From a virus: a DNA stretch of 24,302 bases. A model generated the notes under the pieces. The model saw only the letters and a list, made by a program, of their open reading frames with translations, did not search any database and was not told where the DNA came from. This document shows, in pieces, positions 7,002 through 22,627 of the stretch (position 1 is the first letter of the stretch; each line of letters starts with the position of its first letter). Location: positions 1 to 24,302 of the IMG/VR virus record IMGVR_UViG_3300017757_000153. One strand, written 5' to 3'. Both the position numbers and the translations under genes were made by a program.

Positions 7002-10000
7002 TTATGCAGCATCAAAAGTTATAGTTGATGAATCAAATGTTCCAAGACTAGAATCATATGAACTTGCTTGATCTGCACCAGCAAGTGAAATTTCGCTTTC
7101 TGGTAAAGCAAGACCACCAGCTTCTGCTGTGGCACCAACTGACACATTTATACTGTTTTGTTGTAGAAATTCAAGTGTTCCACCTTCTAGCAATAACTCA
7201 TCACCAGCATTCGTTGATGAACCATCTGTGCCATTCAATAAAACAAATCCACCTTCATTGCCTGGCACTAAGACATAATTTGTGCTCATAAGTTGAATAC
7301 GATCACCATCATCACGTCCACCAGTGCTATCCAATAACAAATTTTCTCCAACATCAGTACTGGCAGCACTTGCATCCAAAATAACTGCTGAGCCTGCATC
7401 ACTTTGTGCAGCATCAGTACCGTTCAAAAGAACATTGCCCTCGATATCCAGAACGGCAGATGTGCCGTTGAGTATAATATTATCGCCTGCATTTGTTGAT
7501 GAACTATCTGTGCCATCCATTGCAATGAAAACTTCAGTATTACGTTCATCCTGTAATGCTAATCTAGATGAAGCTAATTCTGTATGTATTCTAGCTTCTC
7601 TTGTAAATGGTACAATGTTTCTGTTACCGTAATTCCTTTCTGGAATTTCACCATTATTAGTGTCGCCTTCAAATTCAATCAAACTACCCTCAGTCATTAT
7701 TTTTTCATTTTCAAGAAGGCCGCTTTCTATAATAACATTAACACTGCGATCTTTAACATCAACATCTTCTCCCAACAGATAACCATTTGCATCTGTTCCA
7801 GTTTCTAGTTTGAGAATATTAACATCAGAACCATTTGTAAGGAAAGCATTATTTTCCGAACCAGACTCAACCATTATTCGGCCAACTTCATTGTCTCTAA
7901 ACCTACCAGTGGTTTCTAACAATATGTTTTGACCATTCTCTGATATTATTACTTCATTTCTAACTTCATCTGCATTTAGATTAAATACAACAAAGTCTTC
8001 TAAAACTAATTCATCAGACGCTGCACTTTGTTCAAAAATAATACTACCTTCAGGTTCTTCAGTGAAATTTCTAAAACCTACACCATTCAAAAGAATATTT
8101 GAACCATCATCTAAAGAATGTTCATTTGTTGCATTCAATACTAGATTATCGCCAGCATCTGTCGCATCACTGTCTGTTCCATCAAGAAGAATATTGTCAT
8201 CTTCAGAATCTAGACCAGCGCTCTCAATATAACTTACAGTGTTAAGTTTAGCTAAATCAGATATTGATAATGCAGCTGTTTCATTAACACTAGTATTAGG
8301 TTCTAGAATTAACACATTACCAGCATTTGAACTAGAAGAATTTGTACCGTTTAGAATAATAGAATCATTTGCATCTGTACTAGAAGAATCCGTACCGTCT
8401 AGAACAAGATTGTTACTTATATCATCTGTAGAAATTTCACTAATCTTTACAGCAGAAGCAGTAGAATTATCCCAATAATCTTCATAGATTATTCTATCTC
8501 CTGCTCCAGTGTTATATTCATCAAAACCATCTAACACCAAATTATCTTCCATGATAATAGGAGCTTTGTCTCTATTACCTGCCTCTAATTGAACTCCTGA
8601 TCTATCAAAGAAAAGTGAGCCAGGTAAAATATTACCAAGTAAAGGTGCACCATAAGACTTTCTTGTTTTAACTAATTGTGGCGTAACCTTTAACTTTGTT
8701 ACTTTTGAAACCGTTCTATTAATAATACCATTTTCGCCAAGTGCTGTTTCTGTAAGTAATCGACCACCACCAGCACCCGCTTCCAAGAAAACAGTACCAT
8801 CACCAGAATTACCAGAGTTTTCTATTGCAATATCTAATCCACTTTCGAATTGTAAATTATCGCCATCTGTTTCTTCAAGAAGTTTGTCACCAAGCGCAAC
8901 ACCAGTTTCTATTAGAAGAGCATCAAATAAACTACTCTCACCATCTGGAGAAATCACATTTTGACGCATACCATGATTAACTTGTATGGTTGGACCAAAT
9001 ATTATTCTAAACAGTGAAGCAAGTTCTGGTGAGAATGTATCCGGCGATGCAGAATCATCAACACCAGCAGCAGTAATACCAATTGCAGCTGAAAGTTGTG
9101 TTGATATTGCAATCTTACCAAATGGAGCAAACCCAGCAGGATGAACTGAAGCCTTCAATTCATTCATATATTCAGAAACAGCTGCATTCACTTTTACTTC
9201 ATAAGAGAATTGCTGATAAAAATAAGAATCTTGAATACGAATAATTTCTTCACTGATAAAACTATCATCATCAAGATATGAACCGGTTCTAGTTGCAGTG
9301 GTTCCAATAGATGTATCAGCATCTAGTGTGCCTTGTGTAACAATTGTTGCTGTTGCACCACCAGAATCTGTTATAACATTGCCAACAAAATTCGGATTAT
9401 TATCTATAAGAATCTCGCCGCCAGCATTGAGAGAAGAATTATTTGTTCCATCTAGAACAATTTTATCGCCTAAAGTTTCATCCTCCATCAACAACTCGGA
9501 ACCAGCATCACTAGAAGAATTATCTGTACCATCTAAAAGAAGATTATTACCAGAATTTTCGTTTAGTAATCTATCACCATCTTCTAGAAGAATATCACCC
9601 ATACCATCAGATTGATCGCCATCAAAAATAGTTTGATTATATAAAACATTACCAAACGTTACACTAGTTACATTTGGTGTTTTTTCTGTAATAAACGTTT
9701 CAAAATTTTCTCCAATAAGTCTGCTGTCTGGAGTATTAACATGTTCTATTGATCGACCATGATTTATAAATATATGATCATTTGAATCTGTCTCCAATAA
9801 CAACTGACCTCCAGCATTAGCCGAAAGACTATCTGTACCATCCAAAAGAACAGAAGAATTTTGATCAGCCTGAACACCATCTGTACCATCTAAAAGAATA
9901 TTATCAGTTTCACGAACTAATTCAAAATCACGAATTATGAAGTTATCTTCAGCATCTGTACTGCTAGAATCTGTTCCATCAAAAACTAGATTATTACTGA

Positions 10001-12863
10001 TGTGCTCGGTGACCAGATAAACTTGTGCATCAGAAATGCTATAACCGTCTCCGCCGACATTAAAACCATCTAAAATAATTGCTTCATCTTCTCCGGTTTC
10101 TAATAAAATTTTCTCGCGGCCGCGGCCCTCGTCACCAAGGTCAGCAACATTGTCCTCTAGTCTAATATTAAATTCAAGCCTATTACCATCATTTTCTAAA
10201 CTAATTTGAAAAACATCTACATCATGTGCATTTGATACAATTTGACCAATTTCATTCTCTAAAAGAATGTTTGTCCCTAATGCAGCAGAGTTGTTAAGAA
10301 TGAAACCAGAACCAACTTCATCAATAACTTTATAGATTGTAGCAACAGGACCATGATCTGGCCTGTCCGGTTCAACAATATCAAAATCTTCTAATTGAAT
10401 ACCATCATTATATGTACCAGTTTGTTCTAATGAAACTGTTTCAATCGAAATAGATTTATTACCCAAACCTGTTTGAGTACCTATTTCAAGTTTTTGTGTA
10501 TCTGCATCATATGCAACTACCGCACCAAGGTGAGTTGTAAATGTATTTCCTATTCCAAATGTACCAGTAACATTTTTAAGGATAAAATTTGTATTTGCTA
10601 CTACATCTGGAGAAGTTGCATATTTAAATCCATTATCAGTAATTTTAATTTCAGTAACTTTACCAATAGTTGTCGTGTTTGCAATAAGATTTGCACTTGC
10701 ACCATTTTCTGTAATAATACTCAATGTAGGAAGTGAAGTATATCCACTACCAGAATTGGCCAAATGAATTTTAATAATTTCGCCTTGATCAGAAGAACTT
10801 AAAGTTTCAGTTTCTAAAACAATTGAATCAGATGAATTACCATAAGCATCTGTTATCAAATCTAAAGATTCAGATAATAATCTATCACCTAACCCAGTGC
10901 CAGTTGTTCCATCTTCTTGTCGTAATTGAAATCCTTCATCAAGAACAGCACTACGAGTTTCAAACAAATCGTAAATATCACTATCAAAAGTTGACTTAGC
11001 ATTATTCTGATTGTCACTTGGCATCCAAAAAATTATGTTAGGAACTTCATCAAAGATATAAGCATTAGCTTTTACAGTTGATACATTTGGTATCACCAAT
11101 ATTAAACCATCACTGCCGCCCATATCAGAAGTAGTGGTTAACTCTGGGTCAGAAAAAGTAAATCCACTTGTAATTTTTACATTCGCAAAAGTATAACCAG
11201 TACCAGATCTGTGAATCGTAGTTTCTGTTGCAAGTGTATTACCAAAGGCAGCAATTTTATTTTCTCTGACAACAATTCTTATAATAGCACCAGTGGATGT
11301 TCCTTGATTGTCGCCATCACCAGATACCGCTGCATAATACGTTCCGTTTGAATAACCAGAACCATCATTAACGACAATAACATTACCAATAGCTCCGCCT
11401 GTTGTAGTTGCACTTACTTGTGCCTTTCTTTTATCGGAATATAAAGGATAGTAGTATGATTTAGTATCACTAAATCTCTTATCAGTACCAAATACAGCAT
11501 ATGGTTCAGATGCAGCCGTTGATAGTTCAGTACCATTCAATAAAATATTAGAATGAACAAATTGTTGTCTTGTACCATCTTCTAAAAGAAAATTTTCTGG
11601 AGCAGTTACTTCTACACTATCCTCAGTAGATAATCTGCCACCAACAACAGATACAAAGGCACGAGCAGAAACAGAATCAGTATCAGCACTTACAGCTGTA
11701 AACTTAACAGCATCACCAACTCTATAACCAGTGCCGGCGTCATCAACAATAACTTCACTAATATCACCAGAACTTATTTCACTTACTTGAGCAGTTGCAT
11801 TACCATTACCAACTGATGTATCTAATATAAAGGTATCATCTTTGTTATAAAGTAATCCACCTTCAGTTAACGTAATATCAGTTACAATTGATTGTACAGT
11901 AAATTGCATAGTTATATCTGATGTTTCAGATATACCCGTAAATGTTTCTGATACAGTAAATCCAGTACCTTCAATAGTATCTTCTCGAAGCGTAAATTCA
12001 ACTACAGTATTAGAACCTTGTTGAAAAGTATATTCGGCAATAATCTGAGCCGTTGTTCCAGACGACGCACCAGTAATATTTTTACCAACCATATCGACAG
12101 GAACAGCATTTCCCGAATCAGAAGTACAACGAATAACAATTGGTCTTATCCAATTACCATCACTCACTCTTGCCATATCTTTTTCAGGATAATATATTTC
12201 AGCCTCTTGACCTAATAAAATTCTAAAGAAAAGTTTATGGCCTTCTGACGTACCTTTTGCTGCATACAGATCTCTAATTTGTTTAATCAGATTTCGTTTA
12301 GATACACCACTTGCAAGCGATGTTGGTATAGATTCCATAAAGGAATCTTTAAAGGCATTTAGAAAATGGTCTACTGTATTGTCTGGATCTGAATACTCAA
12401 AGAGTTGCTGAATATTTTGAACAGGATTAGCACGATACTTAACTAAAGTGCTAGTCGCGCCACTGGTGCCGCCAGTGATTGTTTCGCCTTCTTTAAATCT
12501 TTGGTTGGCAGATATATAAAGAGTTTCGTTATCATCTACTAATATCTTAGCAGTTGCTTTACTTGTTCCACCAGTAATAGTTTCACCAATATCGAATTTA
12601 CCTGTACTGTCCTCAAAAACAATCTTACCTGATTCATTAGAACTGGATGCATCAGTACCATCTAACCTAAGAAAACTAGTTGATGCGGTTTCAAGTAAAA
12701 CATCATCCAACGTGCCTGTTATGGTTATCTGAGCAGACTCTAGAAACTTATAATATTGTCTCAGAAAATCAACAAAGATAGGATGGTCAGCCTGAATATA
12801 ATCAGGAACCTGGCCATCAATTAGATTTGATAGTTTAGTTGTTAGTTCTGCTTCATGAGACAT
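7002..12863 (-). CDS. Giant repeat-containing baseplate/tail structural protein (1953 aa)
   Basis: ATG at 12863, four bases after the gp6 stop. The N-terminal ~45 residues (with VPDYIQADHPIFVDFLRQYY) and residues ~150-235 (an FKDSFMESIP segment, then IKQIRDLYAAKGTSEGHKLF and EIYYPEKDMARVSDGNW) match the conserved opening of large structural proteins that follow gp6 in marine T4-like phages. Two GETITGGTS modules lie near residues 89 and 124 and a related one near 259. Residues ~491-594 share a domain with gp8. A helical stretch lies about residues 1180-1215. Many copies of a ~20-residue unit, LLDGTDSSSTDAGDxhhLE, occur mainly at residues ~955-1140 and ~1440-1890, mixed with LLLETGxxxGDKLLEE-like units. 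It is very acidic, with no signal peptide or membrane segment. Role is probably baseplate-associated, near the gp7/gp53 position of T4, but a direct T4 counterpart cannot be assigned by eye. Confidence 0.8.
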   Translation of the reverse strand: MSHEAELTTKLSNLIDGQVPDYIQADHPIFVDFLRQYYKFLESAQITITGTLDDVLLETASTSFLRLDGTDASSSNESGKIVFEDSTGKFDIGETITGGTSKATAKILVDDNETLYISANQRFKEGETITGGTSGATSTLVKYRANPVQNIQQLFEYSDPDNTVDHFLNAFKDSFMESIPTSLASGVSKRNLIKQIRDLYAAKGTSEGHKLFFRILLGQEAEIYYPEKDMARVSDGNWIRPIVIRCTSDSGNAVPVDMVGKNITGASSGTTAQIIAEYTFQQGSNTVVEFTLREDTIEGTGFTVSETFTGISETSDITMQFTVQSIVTDITLTEGGLLYNKDDTFILDTSVGNGNATAQVSEISSGDISEVIVDDAGTGYRVGDAVKFTAVSADTDSVSARAFVSVVGGRLSTEDSVEVTAPENFLLEDGTRQQFVHSNILLNGTELSTAASEPYAVFGTDKRFSDTKSYYYPLYSDKRKAQVSATTTGGAIGNVIVVNDGSGYSNGTYYAAVSGDGDNQGTSTGAIIRIVVRENKIAAFGNTLATETTIHRSGTGYTFANVKITSGFTFSDPELTTTSDMGGSDGLILVIPNVSTVKANAYIFDEVPNIIFWMPSDNQNNAKSTFDSDIYDLFETRSAVLDEGFQLRQEDGTTGTGLGDRLLSESLDLITDAYGNSSDSIVLETETLSSSDQGEIIKIHLANSGSGYTSLPTLSIITENGASANLIANTTTIGKVTEIKITDNGFKYATSPDVVANTNFILKNVTGTFGIGNTFTTHLGAVVAYDADTQKLEIGTQTGLGNKSISIETVSLEQTGTYNDGIQLEDFDIVEPDRPDHGPVATIYKVIDEVGSGFILNNSAALGTNILLENEIGQIVSNAHDVDVFQISLENDGNRLEFNIRLEDNVADLGDEGRGREKILLETGEDEAIILDGFNVGGDGYSISDAQVYLVTEHISNNLVFDGTDSSSTDAEDNFIIRDFELVRETDNILLDGTDGVQADQNSSVLLDGTDSLSANAGGQLLLETDSNDHIFINHGRSIEHVNTPDSRLIGENFETFITEKTPNVTSVTFGNVLYNQTIFDGDQSDGMGDILLEDGDRLLNENSGNNLLLDGTDNSSSDAGSELLMEDETLGDKIVLDGTNNSSLNAGGEILIDNNPNFVGNVITDSGGATATIVTQGTLDADTSIGTTATRTGSYLDDDSFISEEIIRIQDSYFYQQFSYEVKVNAAVSEYMNELKASVHPAGFAPFGKIAISTQLSAAIGITAAGVDDSASPDTFSPELASLFRIIFGPTIQVNHGMRQNVISPDGESSLFDALLIETGVALGDKLLEETDGDNLQFESGLDIAIENSGNSGDGTVFLEAGAGGGRLLTETALGENGIINRTVSKVTKLKVTPQLVKTRKSYGAPLLGNILPGSLFFDRSGVQLEAGNRDKAPIIMEDNLVLDGFDEYNTGAGDRIIYEDYWDNSTASAVKISEISTDDISNNLVLDGTDSSSTDANDSIILNGTNSSSSNAGNVLILEPNTSVNETAALSISDLAKLNTVSYIESAGLDSEDDNILLDGTDSDATDAGDNLVLNATNEHSLDDGSNILLNGVGFRNFTEEPEGSIIFEQSAASDELVLEDFVVFNLNADEVRNEVIISENGQNILLETTGRFRDNEVGRIMVESGSENNAFLTNGSDVNILKLETGTDANGYLLGEDVDVKDRSVNVIIESGLLENEKIMTEGSLIEFEGDTNNGEIPERNYGNRNIVPFTREARIHTELASSRLALQDERNTEVFIAMDGTDSSSTNAGDNIILNGTSAVLDIEGNVLLNGTDAAQSDAGSAVILDASAASTDVGENLLLDSTGGRDDGDRIQLMSTNYVLVPGNEGGFVLLNGTDGSSTNAGDELLLEGGTLEFLQQNSINVSVGATAEAGGLALPESEISLAGADQASSYDSSLGTFDSSTITFDAA
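7190..8545 (-). repeat. Degenerate DGTD coding repeats, block 1
   Basis: About a dozen degenerate copies of a 20-residue, ~60-base coding unit with the core [LI]LDGTDxSSxxAGD, for example at 8370-8410, 8320-8350, 8160-8200, 7480-7520, 7400-7440 and 7200-7240. Some are back to back. At DNA level the plus strand shows recurring gcatctgtactagaagaatc-like strings. They are protein repeats, not spaced identical DNA repeats. Confidence 0.85.
9430..10000 (-). repeat. Degenerate DGTD coding repeats, block 2
   Basis: Five more copies of the DGTD unit (at about 9960-9990, 9880-9905, 9825-9850, 9520-9545 and 9445-9470) inside the same 1953-residue protein, two of them back to back. A lone copy lies near the N-terminus at about 12640-12680. 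Confidence 0.8.
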
Positions 12864-18183: not shown

Positions 18184-19206
18184 TTAAGCGTCAGCAGCTC
18201 TTATAACTCTAAGAAGTTTTCGTCCTGACTTTCTGGGATTTCTACCATTTGTGTCTACTTTTAATGTGCCTCCGCCGAATCGACTGCCACCAGCGTTACC
18301 ATTAATTAATCGAATATTTTTACCCTTCGTGCCATGATAAAATCCAACATGACCTTTACTGGGATCGGGAGGCCCGTTTTTCGGATCTCTTTCAAACACC
18401 ATAATATCACCTTTTTGAAATTTATCATAAGGTATTTCGCCTTTACCATCCCAAACAACATCGCCTGGATAATTTTGATAAGCTCTAGAACTTAAATTGT
18501 TGCCTGATAATGGTTTCTTTCCTGCACACTTTAAAGCATGAGTAACAAACGCTGCACACCAATGCGTGCCTTCACCTGTTCTACCCTTATGACCAATTTC
18601 TTTAAACATTTGTCTAAGTTTACCATTTTGACCGCCTCTACCTTCTCGCATCTCTGGCCATTCTCCAGTTTTCGGGTCATATTTACCATAGATACCTTTA
18701 TTATACAAACAATCTTCTAGATCTTTTCCTGTTTCAGATAACGGAGCATCTATTGCTTCTGATGCGGCCGCCGAAGCTTCGCCACCAGATGGTGCACCAG
18801 ATGATGGCGATAATGGAGCACGAGGATCTCCACCGCTGCCAGGAGCATCACGGCCAGGAATACAACCAATGACAACAGGATGTTGTTTATCATGTGCATC
18901 AAGAAAGAAACCAAACACTGTAGTTCCTTCTATAAGATTTGAAGTCCCACCGACACCACTAATGCCTGGTGAATTTGTTGGATGCATAACAGATGCCCAC
19001 GGCAAATCTTTAGTGGGCAACTGATCTTTATCTTGTGTATGATATCCTATGCAACGAACCTTAACCCTACCTAACTTAGCAGGATCACCAACTGAACGAG
19101 GTTTACCATCTCCATCAACGAATAATACTATACGAGCTTCTACAACACCGATAAACCAACAGAAACCATCTAAACCAGCAAAGTTTGAAATATCTTGTTG
19201 AATCAC
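18184..19206 (-). CDS. 5: Baseplate hub gp5-like protein: OB-fold plus Cys/His peptidoglycan peptidase
   Basis: 340 residues from a GTG at 19206, chosen because AGGAG lies nine bases upstream. Residues ~10-120 resemble the gp5 N-terminal OB-fold (FCWFIGVVEARI, LGRVKVRCIGYHT, DLPWASVMHPT, TTVFGFFLDAH, HPVVIGCIPG). A Gly/Ser/Ala linker follows (~121-155). Residues ~160-335 look like an NlpC/P60- or CHAP-like domain of the TIGR02594 type: Cys217 in THWCAAFV, GDIMVFER, His286 in GHVGFYHG, and INGN near 301. The Cys/His pair fits a thiol hydrolase of peptidoglycan cross-bridges, replacing the T4 glycosidase lysozyme domain. The beta-helix normally at the C-terminus is absent and is found in the gene at 15519-16661. 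It probably forms the hub and makes the local hole in the cell wall at infection. A late promoter lies upstream. Confidence 0.85.
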   Translation of the reverse strand: MIQQDISNFAGLDGFCWFIGVVEARIVLFVDGDGKPRSVGDPAKLGRVKVRCIGYHTQDKDQLPTKDLPWASVMHPTNSPGISGVGGTSNLIEGTTVFGFFLDAHDKQHPVVIGCIPGRDAPGSGGDPRAPLSPSSGAPSGGEASAAASEAIDAPLSETGKDLEDCLYNKGIYGKYDPKTGEWPEMREGRGGQNGKLRQMFKEIGHKGRTGEGTHWCAAFVTHALKCAGKKPLSGNNLSSRAYQNYPGDVVWDGKGEIPYDKFQKGDIMVFERDPKNGPPDPSKGHVGFYHGTKGKNIRLINGNAGGSRFGGGTLKVDTNGRNPRKSGRKLLRVIRAADA

Positions 19207-20059: not shown

Positions 20060-20704
20060 TTAAGTTTTTCTCAATATAGTGATACTACCTTGCCTGAACT
20101 TATGTGGCTCGATTATATCCAATCGTTGTATATTGGGGCCTGTAAGTTTATCAAACTTAAACATTGGACCATGCAAATATTTTGATATGGTTTCACCATT
20201 CTTATTTTCTTTACCCTTAAAGAAAGTAAAATGAACAATCAAATATTCCTTGATTATCTCAAAGTAGTTATCAAGAAAGAATTGCAATTCATTCGGGCCT
20301 CCACAATCAAACCAGCACAAATCAAATTCAGAATAGGTATCTTTCACCTTAGTCATAATATCTGAATTAGTAAAATCGCCTTCAATAAAATCAACGATAT
20401 TTGATGCGTTATTGGTTATCAACTCTCGGCGATTGTCTGCTCTAGTTTCATCTGTTTCTAAACTCTGGTCATCAATGACAACTAATCGAGGATTATATTT
20501 GGTATTCATGAATTCAGGATCACAATTACCATCCCAATGCAATTCAAAATTATTTTCAATTGCTTCTATTAAAAATGGTGTAGTATAACCAAATCCAATT
20601 TCTAATACCTTTTGTGGTCGAGCCATTTCCATCAAACCAATGAGAAACGGACCAACTTTTTCTGTGCCATATCCTGGCGTATACCATTCTTTATATTTTA
20701 TCAT
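20060..20704 (-). CDS. Putative class I SAM-dependent methyltransferase
   Basis: 214 residues. Residues 33-44 (VLEIGFGYTTPF) are a clear motif I (E/D-x-G-x-G) of Rossmann-type methyltransferases, a VVIDDQS segment near residue 75 fits the acidic motif II strand, and DFIEGDFTNSD and FDLCWFDCGGPNELQ fit motifs III and IV. An ITILRK strand ends the fold. The substrate is unknown; there is no DPPY/NPPY motif, so DNA amino-methylation is unlikely. The ATG overlaps the TGA of the 27-residue ORF (ATGA), so the two are coupled. It is one of several accessory enzymes in this part of the phage. Confidence 0.7.
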   Translation of the reverse strand: MIKYKEWYTPGYGTEKVGPFLIGLMEMARPQKVLEIGFGYTTPFLIEAIENNFELHWDGNCDPEFMNTKYNPRLVVIDDQSLETDETRADNRRELITNNASNIVDFIEGDFTNSDIMTKVKDTYSEFDLCWFDCGGPNELQFFLDNYFEIIKEYLIVHFTFFKGKENKNGETISKYLHGPMFKFDKLTGPNIQRLDIIEPHKFRQGSITILRKT

Positions 20705-20784
20705 AAACTTGCAATTCCAATACTAGTTAATAAACAGACAAACCAAATTATAAACAACCAACTCAATATTTTAATTATTCCCAT
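20701..20784 (-). CDS. Single-helix membrane microprotein (27 aa)
   Basis: ATG at 20784, with TTAGGT about nine bases upstream that overlaps the stop of the SprT-like gene. The product, MGIIKILSWLFIIWFVCLL followed by TSIGIASL, is almost entirely hydrophobic and long enough to cross a membrane once. Its TGA overlaps the methyltransferase ATG (ATGA). Too short for automated gene calls. It explains the 95-base gap between two genes. No family recognised. Confidence 0.5.
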   Translation of the reverse strand: MGIIKILSWLFIIWFVCLLTSIGIASL

Positions 20785-20799
20785 AAAAGTGACCTAAGA

Positions 20800-21264
20800 C
20801 TATAAACAAGTTTCTATAAACTCTTCTGCCAATGAATATTCCATTGCATAGGCTTGTGTCTCCCACGGCTGTTTATCATAATCAGTTCGTGCATAGTTTC
20901 TATATTTACTGTCTTTACATTTCCACATTTGAAACGATGCATCAGACTGAACATATTTCTTAGTTGCATATTGCATAACATGTACCATTTCATGACAGAC
21001 AGTCGTAATAAAGTCATATACGCCATCACTAACCAACAAAACACCATCCCTAGACAATCTGTTATGTATTCCAATCTCATAAGTTTTCTTTTCATAAGAA
21101 TCCATGCACCAGCCATACATACCGTCCTTAAGTGTATTAGTAAGTGTACAAGATATGTAAAGATTGCGATGCCGTGGTAATAATTTCTTGATACAGAATT
21201 TAATTACCTTGTAAGCAAGTATTCTGTCTCGTTTTATGCCGCCTTTGGTTTCAAAATATATCAT
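20800..21264 (-). CDS. SprT-like zinc metallopeptidase
   Basis: 154 residues with His91-Glu92...His95 in VCHEMVHVMQY, the HExxH zinc site, and PWETQAYAME with Glu135 as probable third ligand. Size and order (an ~85-residue beta-rich lead, HExxH helix, then a W/E-x-x-A helix) match small SprT-like peptidases that are common in marine T4-like phages. In cells the family cuts DNA-bound or cross-linked proteins; a phage role is not established. The start has no good ribosome site. The gene is followed directly by the 27-residue membrane microprotein and preceded by a hairpin between direct repeats. Confidence 0.8.
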   Translation of the reverse strand: MIYFETKGGIKRDRILAYKVIKFCIKKLLPRHRNLYISCTLTNTLKDGMYGWCMDSYEKKTYEIGIHNRLSRDGVLLVSDGVYDFITTVCHEMVHVMQYATKKYVQSDASFQMWKCKDSKYRNYARTDYDKQPWETQAYAMEYSLAEEFIETCL

Positions 21265-21315
21265 AGTGTTAACGCAAGAATGTATAAGAATGTTGATTCA
21301 TACCAATATTTATTT

Positions 21316-21404
21316 CATTATACATGATAATAATTTGTTGGATGTTACGTTTCCTCGGACACATTCGATTCTTGTCCGAGGTTTTGTAACATCATACATG
21401 ATAA
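21316..21404. repeat. 15-base imperfect direct repeats framing a hairpin
   Basis: CATtATACATGATAA at 21316-21330 and CATcATACATGATAA at 21390-21404 differ at one base and lie 74 bases apart. The long hairpin at 21341-21393 lies between them. Two repeats around a structured unit could be a duplicated insertion site or a remnant of slippage; the sequence alone does not decide. Confidence 0.65.
21341..21393. other. Long two-part hairpin between SprT-like gene and tRNA-Arg
   Basis: Outer arms GATGTTAC (21341-21348) and GTAACATC (21386-21393), 8 pairs; a 4x4 internal loop; inner arms CCTCGGACA (21353-21361) and TGTCCGAGG (21373-21381), 9 pairs; an 11-base loop. All 17 pairs are Watson-Crick. No T-run follows on the minus strand; on the plus strand the inner stem is followed by four T's only, so it is a weak terminator at best. 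It could be an RNA processing or stability element in the tRNA/SprT transcript, or a small mobile hairpin. Confidence 0.7.
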
Positions 21405-21508
21405 CATACTAATAGAATAATTGCAACAATAATAATAGTTTGTGACAACATAAGTACCCATACCGGTATCTCTACAAGTTTTATAAATTGTTGATTAGGT
21501 AACTTCAT
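21392..21508 (-). CDS. Single-helix membrane microprotein (38 aa)
   Basis: ATG at 21508, seven bases after the encoded CCA end of tRNA-Arg. The product starts MKLPNQQFIKLVEIPVWVL and continues with a hydrophobic stretch (SQTIIIVAIILLVCYHV), a good single membrane segment with an N-terminal polar head. It has no clear ribosome site, which lowers confidence. Its stop lies on the edge of the hairpin at 21341-21393. No family recognised. Confidence 0.4.
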   Translation of the reverse strand: MKLPNQQFIKLVEIPVWVLMLSQTIIIVAIILLVCYHV

Positions 21509-21514
21509 AATAAT

Positions 21515-21591
21515 TGGTACGCTCGGTAGGATTCGAACCTACGGCCCACAGCTTAGAAGGCTGTTGCTCTATCCAACTGAGCTACGAGCGC
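21515..21591 (-). tRNA. tRNA-Arg (anticodon UCU), CCA encoded
   Basis: Minus strand, 77 bases. Acceptor arm GCGCTCG/CGAGCGT (one G-T pair at the end), D-arm GCTC/GAGC with a nine-base loop, anticodon arm ACAGC-CTTCTAA-GCTGT giving anticodon TCT, a 5-base variable loop, T-arm GTAGG-TTCGAAT-CCTAC, discriminator A and an encoded CCA. It reads AGA/AGG, which are frequent arginine codons in the AT-rich genes here. A phage tRNA of this kind would help late translation in a host with little of it. The D-loop supplies the stop codon of the upstream 48-residue ORF. Confidence 0.97.
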
Positions 21592-21715
21592 TTTTGTGTT
21601 TATTCTTACGAGTATATTTCGTTTTATCACAAACCACTCGCATGCGAAATGGGCCATTCGGATCTCGAACAACTCTTTTCCAGGCATTTTTAAGTTTTGA
21701 ACGTTTCTTTTTCAT
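21569..21715 (-). CDS. Basic small protein (48 aa) running into the tRNA-Arg gene
   Basis: ATG at 21715 overlaps the TGA of the nucleotidase gene (ATGA). The product is strongly basic: MKKKRSKLKNAWKRVVRD, then a PNGPFRMRVVCDKTKYTRK segment, and KNKHKSARSSVG. The middle part (PF-x-R-V-V-x-D-K-x-x-Y-x-R-K) resembles small basic proteins I associate with T4-like marine phages, so I take the frame as real. The last residues are encoded by the 5' end of the tRNA gene, and the TAG stop is in the tRNA D-loop; the natural C-terminus was perhaps lost when the tRNA arrived. It probably binds nucleic acid; inference from charge. Confidence 0.55.
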   Translation of the reverse strand: MKKKRSKLKNAWKRVVRDPNGPFRMRVVCDKTKYTRKNKHKSARSSVG

Positions 21716-21736
21716 TTGATCGTTTCTTTTTCATTT
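21702..21736. repeat. 16-base tandem repeat, period 19
   Basis: CGTTTCTTTTTCATTT occurs at 21702-21717 and 21721-21736. On the minus strand both copies read AAATGAAAAAGAAACG. The period is not a multiple of three, so the copy nearer the nucleotidase encodes its C-terminal NEKET, while the other supplies its stop and the ATG of the basic 48-residue ORF. Confidence 0.9.
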
Positions 21737-22266
21737 CGAGGTAAAGTAAACATAGTGCTGCATATAGTAAGATTTGTAAACGAATGTAATCTTTCTAACA
21801 AATTCTTTAATTCTTTAAGCGAATGCTTATTGGCTTGATAAAGAATACCAATGCCATGATTTTGTGTCCAAGCTTTTAGTTTCTCTTCACGGTCATCAAT
21901 CAGGATATTCGATTGCCCATTTTCATTAACAGCATATTTTTCTTTTACACTTGAAAAGTATGCATCCTTGGGAGTGTAACCATGATTTGCCAACCATTTT
22001 CTTTTCAAGGATATGCTATGATCATAGTCATCACGTAAAGGAGCAGACAGAATATACCAATTACCATTTGTAAGTTCATGAATAAACTCAACTAATTCGT
22101 CTGACGTTGGAAATTTTGGTAATCGCTCAAAGAAATCAGTTCCTTTCAGTGCTTTTACAGATTCATTCTTGTCTGGCAGATCTTTCCAGTGATTTACATT
22201 ATAATGTCGTGCTAATTCTGTAAAGAAATCAGCAATAACACCATCCATATCAAGATAAATGTTCAT
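21712..22266 (-). CDS. 5'(3')-deoxyribonucleotidase-like HAD phosphatase
   Basis: 184 residues, ATG at 22266 with only a weak GG-rich ribosome site. The N-terminus NIYLDMDGVIADF has the HAD motif I aspartates Asp6 and Asp8, YILSAP near residue 73 is motif II, SLKRKW carries the motif III lysine, and NILIDDREEKLKAW is motif IV. This set fits the NT5C type (deoxy-pyrimidine 5'-nucleotidase, PF06941). It would remove phosphate from dNMPs, tuning nucleotide pools during host DNA turnover. Related genes occur in T4-like cyanophages. The last residues come from a duplicated segment shared with the next ORF's start. Confidence 0.85.
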   Translation of the reverse strand: MNIYLDMDGVIADFFTELARHYNVNHWKDLPDKNESVKALKGTDFFERLPKFPTSDELVEFIHELTNGNWYILSAPLRDDYDHSISLKRKWLANHGYTPKDAYFSSVKEKYAVNENGQSNILIDDREEKLKAWTQNHGIGILYQANKHSLKELKNLLERLHSFTNLTICSTMFTLPRNEKETIK

Positions 22267-22340
22267 ATTACCAAACCAAACTTATTAAAAAAAATGATAT
22301 TATAATTATTACTAAAGAATAAAAACTATTTATTTTTATA

Positions 22341-22541
22341 TCACCAACTCACTCTATAACCCTTCGAATGCGGGTAATCCAGCTTCAAACCACTTATGAT
22401 ATTGTCCATATCACAAATTTTTACTCTACCATACTGTATACAACGATAAAACTTACCATTTTTCTCAACTTTGACAAAATATGTAGTATAGTCAGTTGAG
22501 GATTTAGGAGTAAATCGTAATATTTTCAAAAAATACTCCAT
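22341..22541 (-). CDS. Small conserved-looking hypothetical protein (66 aa)
   Basis: I choose the ATG at 22541; the frame is open to a TTG at 22565, but that lacks a ribosome site and lies in the preceding small ORF. The product, MEYFLKILRFTPKSS then a DYTTYFVKVEKNGKFYRCIQ segment, ends in SKGYRVSW. Alternating beta-strand pattern with aromatics, no membrane segment, no family recognised. A T4-type late promoter octamer lies about 70 bases upstream, inside the preceding microprotein ORF. Confidence 0.65.
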   Translation of the reverse strand: MEYFLKILRFTPKSSTDYTTYFVKVEKNGKFYRCIQYGRVKICDMDNIISGLKLDYPHSKGYRVSW

Positions 22542-22627
22542 GGTTGAACACCAATGATGGCACAAGCAAATATAAATGCACTGCCAACAAACATTATGGC
22601 TGTGCCTAACATATTTATAATTCTCAT
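22526..22627 (-). CDS. Single-helix membrane microprotein (33 aa)
   Basis: ATG at 22627 with AAAGG nine bases before it, a good ribosome site. The product MRIINMLGTAIMFVGSAFI plus FACAIIGVQPWSIF is one hydrophobic segment with a positive N-terminus, so an inner-membrane insertion with N-in is likely. It overlaps the next gene's start by 16 bases. No family recognised. Of the tiny ORFs here this one has the clearest ribosome site. Confidence 0.5.
   Translation of the reverse strand: MRIINMLGTAIMFVGSAFIFACAIIGVQPWSIF
22612..22619 (-). promoter_or_regulatory. Possible T4-type late promoter (TATAAATA)
   Basis: Perfect minus-strand octamer, about 70 bases before the 66-residue gene's ATG. It lies inside the 33-residue ORF, so it could be chance in AT-rich coding sequence; if real it would drive the 66-residue gene and the nucleotidase. 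Confidence 0.4.

Follow-up and report, generated by a model that had tools for sequence, protein, structure and literature searches.

Imm and Spackle of phage T4 confer superinfection exclusion (PMC7677548), and Llp of phage T5 is described as acting from the periplasm to jam its receptor (PMC9586334). The Arthrobacter phages of cluster AU are reported to have numerous small proteins that contain membrane segments (PMC5679793), and the account of pelagimyophages in PMC7029224 describes hypervariable regions and suggests that certain genes in them might help to avoid coinfection. Here, we report on four short hydrophobic reading frames, designated A to D, in an accessory stretch of the IMG/VR virus record IMGVR_UViG_3300017757_000153. 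The record fragment analysed, 24.3 kb long and hereafter called the window, carries its genes mostly on the minus strand. From these genes, its source is judged to be a T4-like marine myovirus, a relative of the pelagi- and methylomyophages. Among 2334 matching phage records, its gp6-like baseplate protein was closest to those of Pelagibacter phage Mosig and Methylophilales phage Melnitz (49% each), followed by that of Pelagibacter phage HTVC008M (47%).

In the explanation that we favour, with moderate confidence, frames B, C, and D would be membrane microprotein genes, and A probably another, housed in an exchangeable cassette; an action on the envelope is plausible. They probably represent real and mostly conserved families, new in themselves but of an already known kind, the phage membrane microproteins. 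The 2022 catalogue of Fremin reportedly holds thousands of small phage genes. No title among the literature matches listed concerns the families described here, and their absence from print is not claimed.

As small, putatively envelope-acting proteins of a T4-like phage, the microproteins are comparable to Imm and Spackle. Spackle is described as a periplasmic inhibitor of the gp5 lysozyme, and the gp5-like hub encoded in the window has a sub-threshold CHAP match. Family searches with the four frames and with two further families from relatives, E and F, gave nothing convincing (PHROGs, no match better than E 0.04 for the frames or their relatives; Pfam, none above cut-off), with no direct sequence comparison to Imm or Spackle made. 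Relatives keep the frames nevertheless, and in other phages different one- or two-helix proteins stand at these positions. The frames offer concrete and cheap candidates in the search for phage functions aimed at the envelope of marine bacteria. They also lend themselves well to the question whether a microprotein works as a partner to the enzyme whose gene comes next.

Conservation of the hydrophobic frames

An earlier note, made from the sequence alone, had pointed to three open reading frames (ORFs) of 27, 38, and 33 amino acids (A, B, and C; Table 1), each mostly one hydrophobic helix. All three lie where it placed them, on the minus strand. A single hydrophobic segment was found in each, with best 19-residue Kyte-Doolittle means (KD19) of 2.39, 2.75, and 2.32, respectively. 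The two ribosome sites it accepted belong to A and C (AGGT, 7-8 nt upstream of the ATG), and the ATGA coupling it described joins the stop of A to the next start. Its fourth frame, D (KD19 2.38), indeed has no ATG, GTG, or TTG start in the window; the stop of D is located at 22268-22270, not at 22270-22272 as given there.

The frames were compared among nine close IMG/VR records (the window and L001-L008) and the more distant record L119; L009-L019 and some later loci were left out as repeat contigs or the window itself. Homologs of B were identified in L006-L008 (38-41% over 29 aa) and also in L001 and L002; the profile hidden Markov model (HMM) gave 26.5 bits, and none of 2000 query shuffles scored as well. 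An ortholog of C in L007 has 37 aa (54% over 37 columns), and C is also present in L001 and L002. Frame D occurs in all eight of the nine close records that cover the place (L008 ends short), with an HMM profile score of 26.8 bits and, again, none of 2000 query shuffles as good. The earlier note had named broken frames in close relatives as a refutation: B, C, and D are unbroken wherever they were found, and B is missing as a whole from L003, L004, and L005. Its picture of membrane microproteins clustered in an accessory stretch holds for B, C, and D by their conserved frames; A lacks a relative distant enough to tell.

Change at codon position 2 was followed in five hand-picked pairs, one per family: B window-L008, C window-L007, D window-L006, E L005-L119, and F L007-L119. 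Pooled over these pairs, 27 of 170 differences fell on this position, against one third expected (p 2e-7), which we read as the pattern of kept hydrophobicity and as a steadier signal than the ratio of nonsynonymous to synonymous change (dN/dS). The differences mostly exchange hydrophobic residues, and the helix is kept. When random change was simulated for nine pairs, an open frame as hydrophobic as the relative resulted in 0.14-4.8% of runs, the weakest pairs being C (0.048) and D window-L007 (0.040). T is the commonest base at codon position 2 in each of A-F, which is not so in the three soluble neighbours measured.

These observations bear on the idea of coupling or leader ORFs, in which a ribosome ending on the ORF and re-initiating on the next gene is what matters and the peptide is a by-product. 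A, C, and D do end on or 1-16 nt from the following start, and E and F overlap the next gene's start in relatives. Coupling, however, does not call for a hydrophobic peptide, whereas the frames preserve both codon position 2 and their hydrophobicity. Furthermore, B is uncoupled, with 127 nt and a hairpin before the next start, and L004-L006 retain the C-terminal residues of D, with their next conserved ORF beginning some 15-30 nt past the D stop. We consider this explanation unlikely.

Values of dN/dS were mixed, and we put no weight on them. Between the window and relatives they were 0.38-0.47 for B and 0.41 for C; for F they were 0.5 (L007-L003) and 0.79 (L007-L119), and for E they ranged from 0.1 to 1.4 among pairs. 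When viral contigs were scanned with alignments of B, C, D, and E, nothing came up beyond contigs already known; the scans with B and D failed to recover all known relatives, which indicates a low sensitivity of such short queries.

Several findings weigh against our favoured explanation. The dN/dS values of B and C (0.4-0.5) are above those of the neighbouring nucleotidase and SprT-like genes (0.15, window-L007), though like that of the neighbouring 66-aa protein (0.44). For D, the dN/dS value of the window-L007 pair is about 1.1 (1.07), and neither record has a usual start. Values for E and F reach 0.8-1.4 versus L119, and the window phage has neither family. Frame A has no independent relative, the only copies found outside the window being 100% identical ones in the near-identical contigs L001 and L002. 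Frame B has no Shine-Dalgarno sequence. The gene before the SprT-like gene is not strongly hydrophobic in phages Melnitz (87 aa, KD 0.96) and S-SM2 (32 aa, KD 0.89); in Melnitz an 87-aa hydrophobic gene (KD 2.37) stands one further up. Finally, conserved hydrophobic frames antisense to the gene direction, two in G003 and one in G004, pass the conservation filter described below, so that passing it is no proof of coding.

Chance expectation

Three ORFs of at least 24 aa with KD19 of at least 2.0 occur in the four gaps considered, against a mean of 0.074 in dinucleotide shuffles, and none of 3000 shuffles reached three; the antisense strand of the same four gaps held no such ORF. This figure flatters the ORFs, which had already been seen when gaps, length limit, and cut-off were chosen. 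Of the 170 ORFs of 24-45 aa on both strands of the whole window, 22 reach this hydrophobicity threshold, and the hydrophobicity of a single short ORF alone is thus weak evidence.

The conserved same-strand microORFs with KD19 of at least 1.9 that a conservation filter picked up were confined to the first 3.1 kb of a 54-kb relative (three) and the first 2.4 kb of a 34-kb one (three), with none in the remainder. The filter missed C, which overlaps the next gene, and D in L007, which has no start. In the window, the same survey returned 39 candidates, the majority of them inside a 1577-aa gene that had escaped masking since it runs off the window. The frames in this gene, several of them hydrophobic, were not counted.

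Composition could also mean that the frames are de novo proto-genes, that is, hydrophobic ORFs yielded by T-rich intergenic DNA, some of which last a while without a settled function. A model of this kind is published for yeast (PMC7005711). The gaps are T-rich on the coding strand (T 0.35-0.48), A is found in one lineage only, and E and F evolve fast. Composition alone, however, gives 0.07 such ORFs and not three. Moreover, B and D are still present in relatives that share 65-80% identity with the window in the SprT-like protein, and E and F are common to L119, where this protein is 55% identical. We regard an origin as proto-genes as rather unlikely.

Organization of the cassette

The microprotein stretch is accessory and precedes the gp5-like hub gene in transcription order, near the baseplate genes. 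The minus-strand order is C, the 66-aa protein, D, the nucleotidase, the 48-aa basic DUF7230 ORF, tRNA-Arg(TCT), and B, followed by the hairpin, the SprT-like protein, A, the methyltransferase-fold protein, a 51-aa ORF, and a 2OG-Fe(II) oxygenase. With its tRNA-Arg, SprT-like protein, methyltransferase fold, and nucleotidase, the stretch is an exchange cassette.

Table 1. Features of the microprotein stretch and their positions in the window.
Feature	Coordinates	Strand	Length	Remarks
Frame A	20701..20784	(-)	27 aa	One hydrophobic helix; ATGA overlap with methyltransferase-fold gene
Frame B	21392..21508	(-)	38 aa	One hydrophobic helix; start 6 nt after tRNA-Arg 3' end
Frame C	22526..22627	(-)	33 aa	One hydrophobic segment, lipobox-like Cys22; overlaps next gene by 16 nt
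Frame D	22268..22348	(-)	26 codons from GTT	One hydrophobic helix; stop TAA
Methyltransferase-fold protein	20060..20704	(-)	214 aa	Downstream of A
SprT-like (zinc-peptidase-like) protein	20800..21264	(-)	154 aa	phrog_10499 (unknown function), E 3e-19
Hairpin	21336..21398	(-)		Strong, two-part; spans end of frame B and downstream; RNA z-score -4.6; no T-run
tRNA-Arg(TCT)	21515..21591	(-)		CCA encoded
Basic ORF (DUF7230)	21569..21715	(-)	48 aa	Pfam DUF7230, 28.8 bits (cut-off 27); conserved
5'-Nucleotidase family protein (NT5C)	21712..22266	(-)	184 aa	Downstream of D
66-aa protein	22341..22541	(-)	66 aa	No known family; overlaps C; identity 52% (L007), 40% (L004)

The methyltransferase-fold protein is labelled so from an AlphaFold model and from sub-threshold matches to Methyltransf_24, which were obtained with two of the four relatives scanned. 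The model (pLDDT 79.7) aligned best with O-methyltransferases in the PDB (E 1e-9, TM-score about 0.6). No match to this protein was found in the phage collection at 1e-5 (BLAST, low-complexity filter on, as in the searches with E and the L007 form of C given below). The Pfam SprT-like family scored below cut-off with the window protein and above cut-off with that of relative L020. At gathering thresholds, Rfam identified the tRNA as its sole match in the window. A DNA search with the stretch matched 34 phage records, and all of the 20 matches listed are at the tRNA.

The arms of the hairpin downstream of B are GATGTTAC/GTAACATC around CCTCGGACA/TGTCCGAGG. Processing of the tRNA would leave a nearly leaderless B message, starting 6 nt past the CCA end (21506-21515). 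A 32-aa hydrophobic ORF located after the tRNA genes of L119 was rejected as a B homolog (1203 of 2000 shuffles scored as well).

Start and possible loss of frame D

The start of frame D differs among the records, being ATG in L003-L005, GTG in L006, and GTT in the window, L001, L002, and L007. In the latter four, the GTT directly follows an in-frame stop. One base past the stop of the 66-aa gene stands ATA (window) or ATC (L007), with the same spacing as between the D stop and the nucleotidase ATG. In L003-L006, D adjoins the DUF7230 ORF; in the window lineage, the nucleotidase gene is located between the two. We conclude that D is a real family, which in the window lineage has either an unusual start or re-initiation, or is on the way to being lost. 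It may be decaying in this lineage, and loss is slightly favoured by its high dN/dS. We do not favour reading D as a +1 frameshift extension of the gene for the 66-aa protein, because D does not stand behind this gene in L004 and L006 and has an ATG or GTG of its own in L003-L006.

Frame C as a candidate lipoprotein

Frame C and its L007 ortholog fit the lipobox pattern: FAC at Cys22 (window) or Cys26 (L007), a positive residue at position 2 (R2/K2), and a hydrophobic stretch. C may be a lipoprotein and not simply a single-pass protein. It would then be a minimal one, with a 21-residue signal peptide, a lipidated Cys22, and a 12-residue mature peptide, CAIIGVQPWSIF, and would work at the outer membrane or in the periplasm as a very small Llp or Cor. 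We see this as a possibility, while leaning against it. In L007, 8 of the 12 mature residues are identical, and the L007 form is similar to the N-terminal ends of proteins of 106-115 aa that bear a lipobox, with none of 2000 shuffles as good. The motif common to them is C followed by GV-PW, and it is coded differently at the DNA level in L020. The window form, however, is less clear (17 and 9 of 2000 shuffles as good in two tests), and the L020 protein has no match in the phage collection. In addition, the conserved 3' end of C overlaps the start of the next gene, which is able to keep those bases by itself; the lipoprotein reading stays a suggestion all the more for this overlap.

The lipobox-bearing family is located in T4-like contigs (L020, 5776-6096; L024, 7507-7854; L038, from 8160). 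Its L020 member had no Pfam match up to E 1 and a best PHROGs match at E 0.26. For the L007 form of C, no match was found in the phage collection with E values up to 1.

Llp of T5 and Cor are small phage lipoproteins, to which C is likened by description only. The mature part of C would comprise 12 residues, whereas residues beyond 45 are named for Llp in its description (PMC9586334).

Positions of microORFs in related phages

Two families absent from the window occupy comparable places in relatives. Family E, 44 aa in L003-L008 and 51 aa in L119, precedes the SprT-like gene in these seven records; its homology in L119 was detected by profile (none of 2000 query shuffles as good), and no match was found in the phage collection at E values up to 1. 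Family F, 55-56 aa with two hydrophobic segments, stands before the methyltransferase-fold gene in six records (L003, L004, L006-L008, and L119). It thus takes the position of A in these six, with no detectable relation to A; one relative has nothing there. A as a shortened member of F, which its place and similar look might suggest, was rejected (1672 of 2000 shuffles of A scored as well).

Upstream places were surveyed in 32 loci picked to avoid duplicates, with same-strand ORFs of at least 100 codons picked greedily and microORFs of 22-70 aa. A hydrophobic microORF was located just upstream of 21 of the 269 long ORFs. For the methyltransferase-fold gene this held in 9 of 18 loci and for the SprT-like gene in 6 of 22; the remaining six stand before other ORFs, and some of them look like chance frames. 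The filter missed the SprT-like gene of L119, although E precedes it. The microORFs before the methyltransferase-fold gene are A, F, a 26-aa ORF (L108), and a 30-aa ORF (L113). At least three of these kinds, A, F, and the L113 ORF, have no detectable relation; the latter was rejected as a relative of F or A (837 and 685 of 2000 shuffles). The L108 ORF bore a weak resemblance both to F (10 of 2000) and to the ORF of L113 (20 of 2000) and none to A (589 of 2000), and is for that resemblance not called unrelated. Among the nine methyltransferase-fold loci without an upstream microORF, L005 has the SprT-like gene directly before. In L097-L102, L109, and L112 the gene stands behind other genes; in six of these eight it is preceded by a gene named recombinase-like by eye, or by a small gene that follows such a gene.

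A one-helix family of 39 aa was seen in L113 (2678-2797) and L099 (1498-1617), 69% identical and in differing gene surroundings, which indicates that such ORFs persist elsewhere in these phages. Its L113 member begins 61 nt after a tRNA-Asp gene.

The cassette might be described by fixed slots, most of them directly upstream of the methyltransferase-fold and SprT-like genes and directly downstream of the tRNA genes. Each slot would take some one- or two-helix microprotein and no particular one, as with A, F, and the 30-aa ORF of L113. The microproteins would be co-translated anchors or recruiters that put the methyltransferase or the peptidase at the inner membrane. D would start, in the window lineage and L007, from a codon other than ATG, GTG, or TTG, namely from GTT or from the ATA or ATC one base after the upstream stop. 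Taken as a whole, this combination appears quite improbable to us.

Proposed function

The analysis shows the frames with their conservation, hydrophobicity, and position; transcription, translation, membrane insertion, target, and effect are inferred. Packed head to tail with the tRNA, SprT-like, methyltransferase-fold, and nucleotidase genes, the microproteins are presumably translated from a polycistronic transcript. Each would put one helix into the inner membrane. A, B, and C, with a lysine or arginine near the N terminus, are probably oriented N-in/C-out; C may instead become a processed lipoprotein. Their size, patchy presence, and position make envelope-directed accessory proteins the most likely interpretation. 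They would most likely contact an envelope protein of the host or phage, to the advantage of the infecting phage. This functional step, for which exclusion of a second phage is the best-known precedent, is tentative and, taken alone, less likely than not.

A role as lysis helpers, either holin- or antiholin-like, would agree with the size and single helix of the microproteins. Nothing else speaks for a holin role, which we consider highly improbable. No lysis family of PHROGs was matched, at E values up to 1, by A, B, or C or by the members of B, D, E, and F from relatives. No lysis gene is adjacent, the neighbours being the 66-aa protein, the nucleotidase, the tRNA, the SprT-like protein, and the methyltransferase fold. 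The nearest candidate for a cell-wall enzyme is the hub gene (sub-cut-off CHAP, PHROG endolysin match), which lies beyond the methyltransferase-fold, 51-aa, and oxygenase genes. The presence of the microproteins also varies among close relatives, unlike that of an essential holin.

Other features of the window

The gp5-like baseplate hub (18184-19206) has an OB domain and the CHAP match (23.2 bits, cut-off 26) where T4 has the lysozyme domain. The 3' end of the DUF7230 ORF enters the tRNA-Arg gene; it also reaches the tRNA in L004 and L005 and stops short of it in L006 and L007. A protein of 1953 aa is encoded between baseplate genes (7002-12863). Its gene has no tandem repeats at the DNA level, and the protein carries many copies, as seen by eye, of a LLDGTDSSSTDAGDN-like motif.

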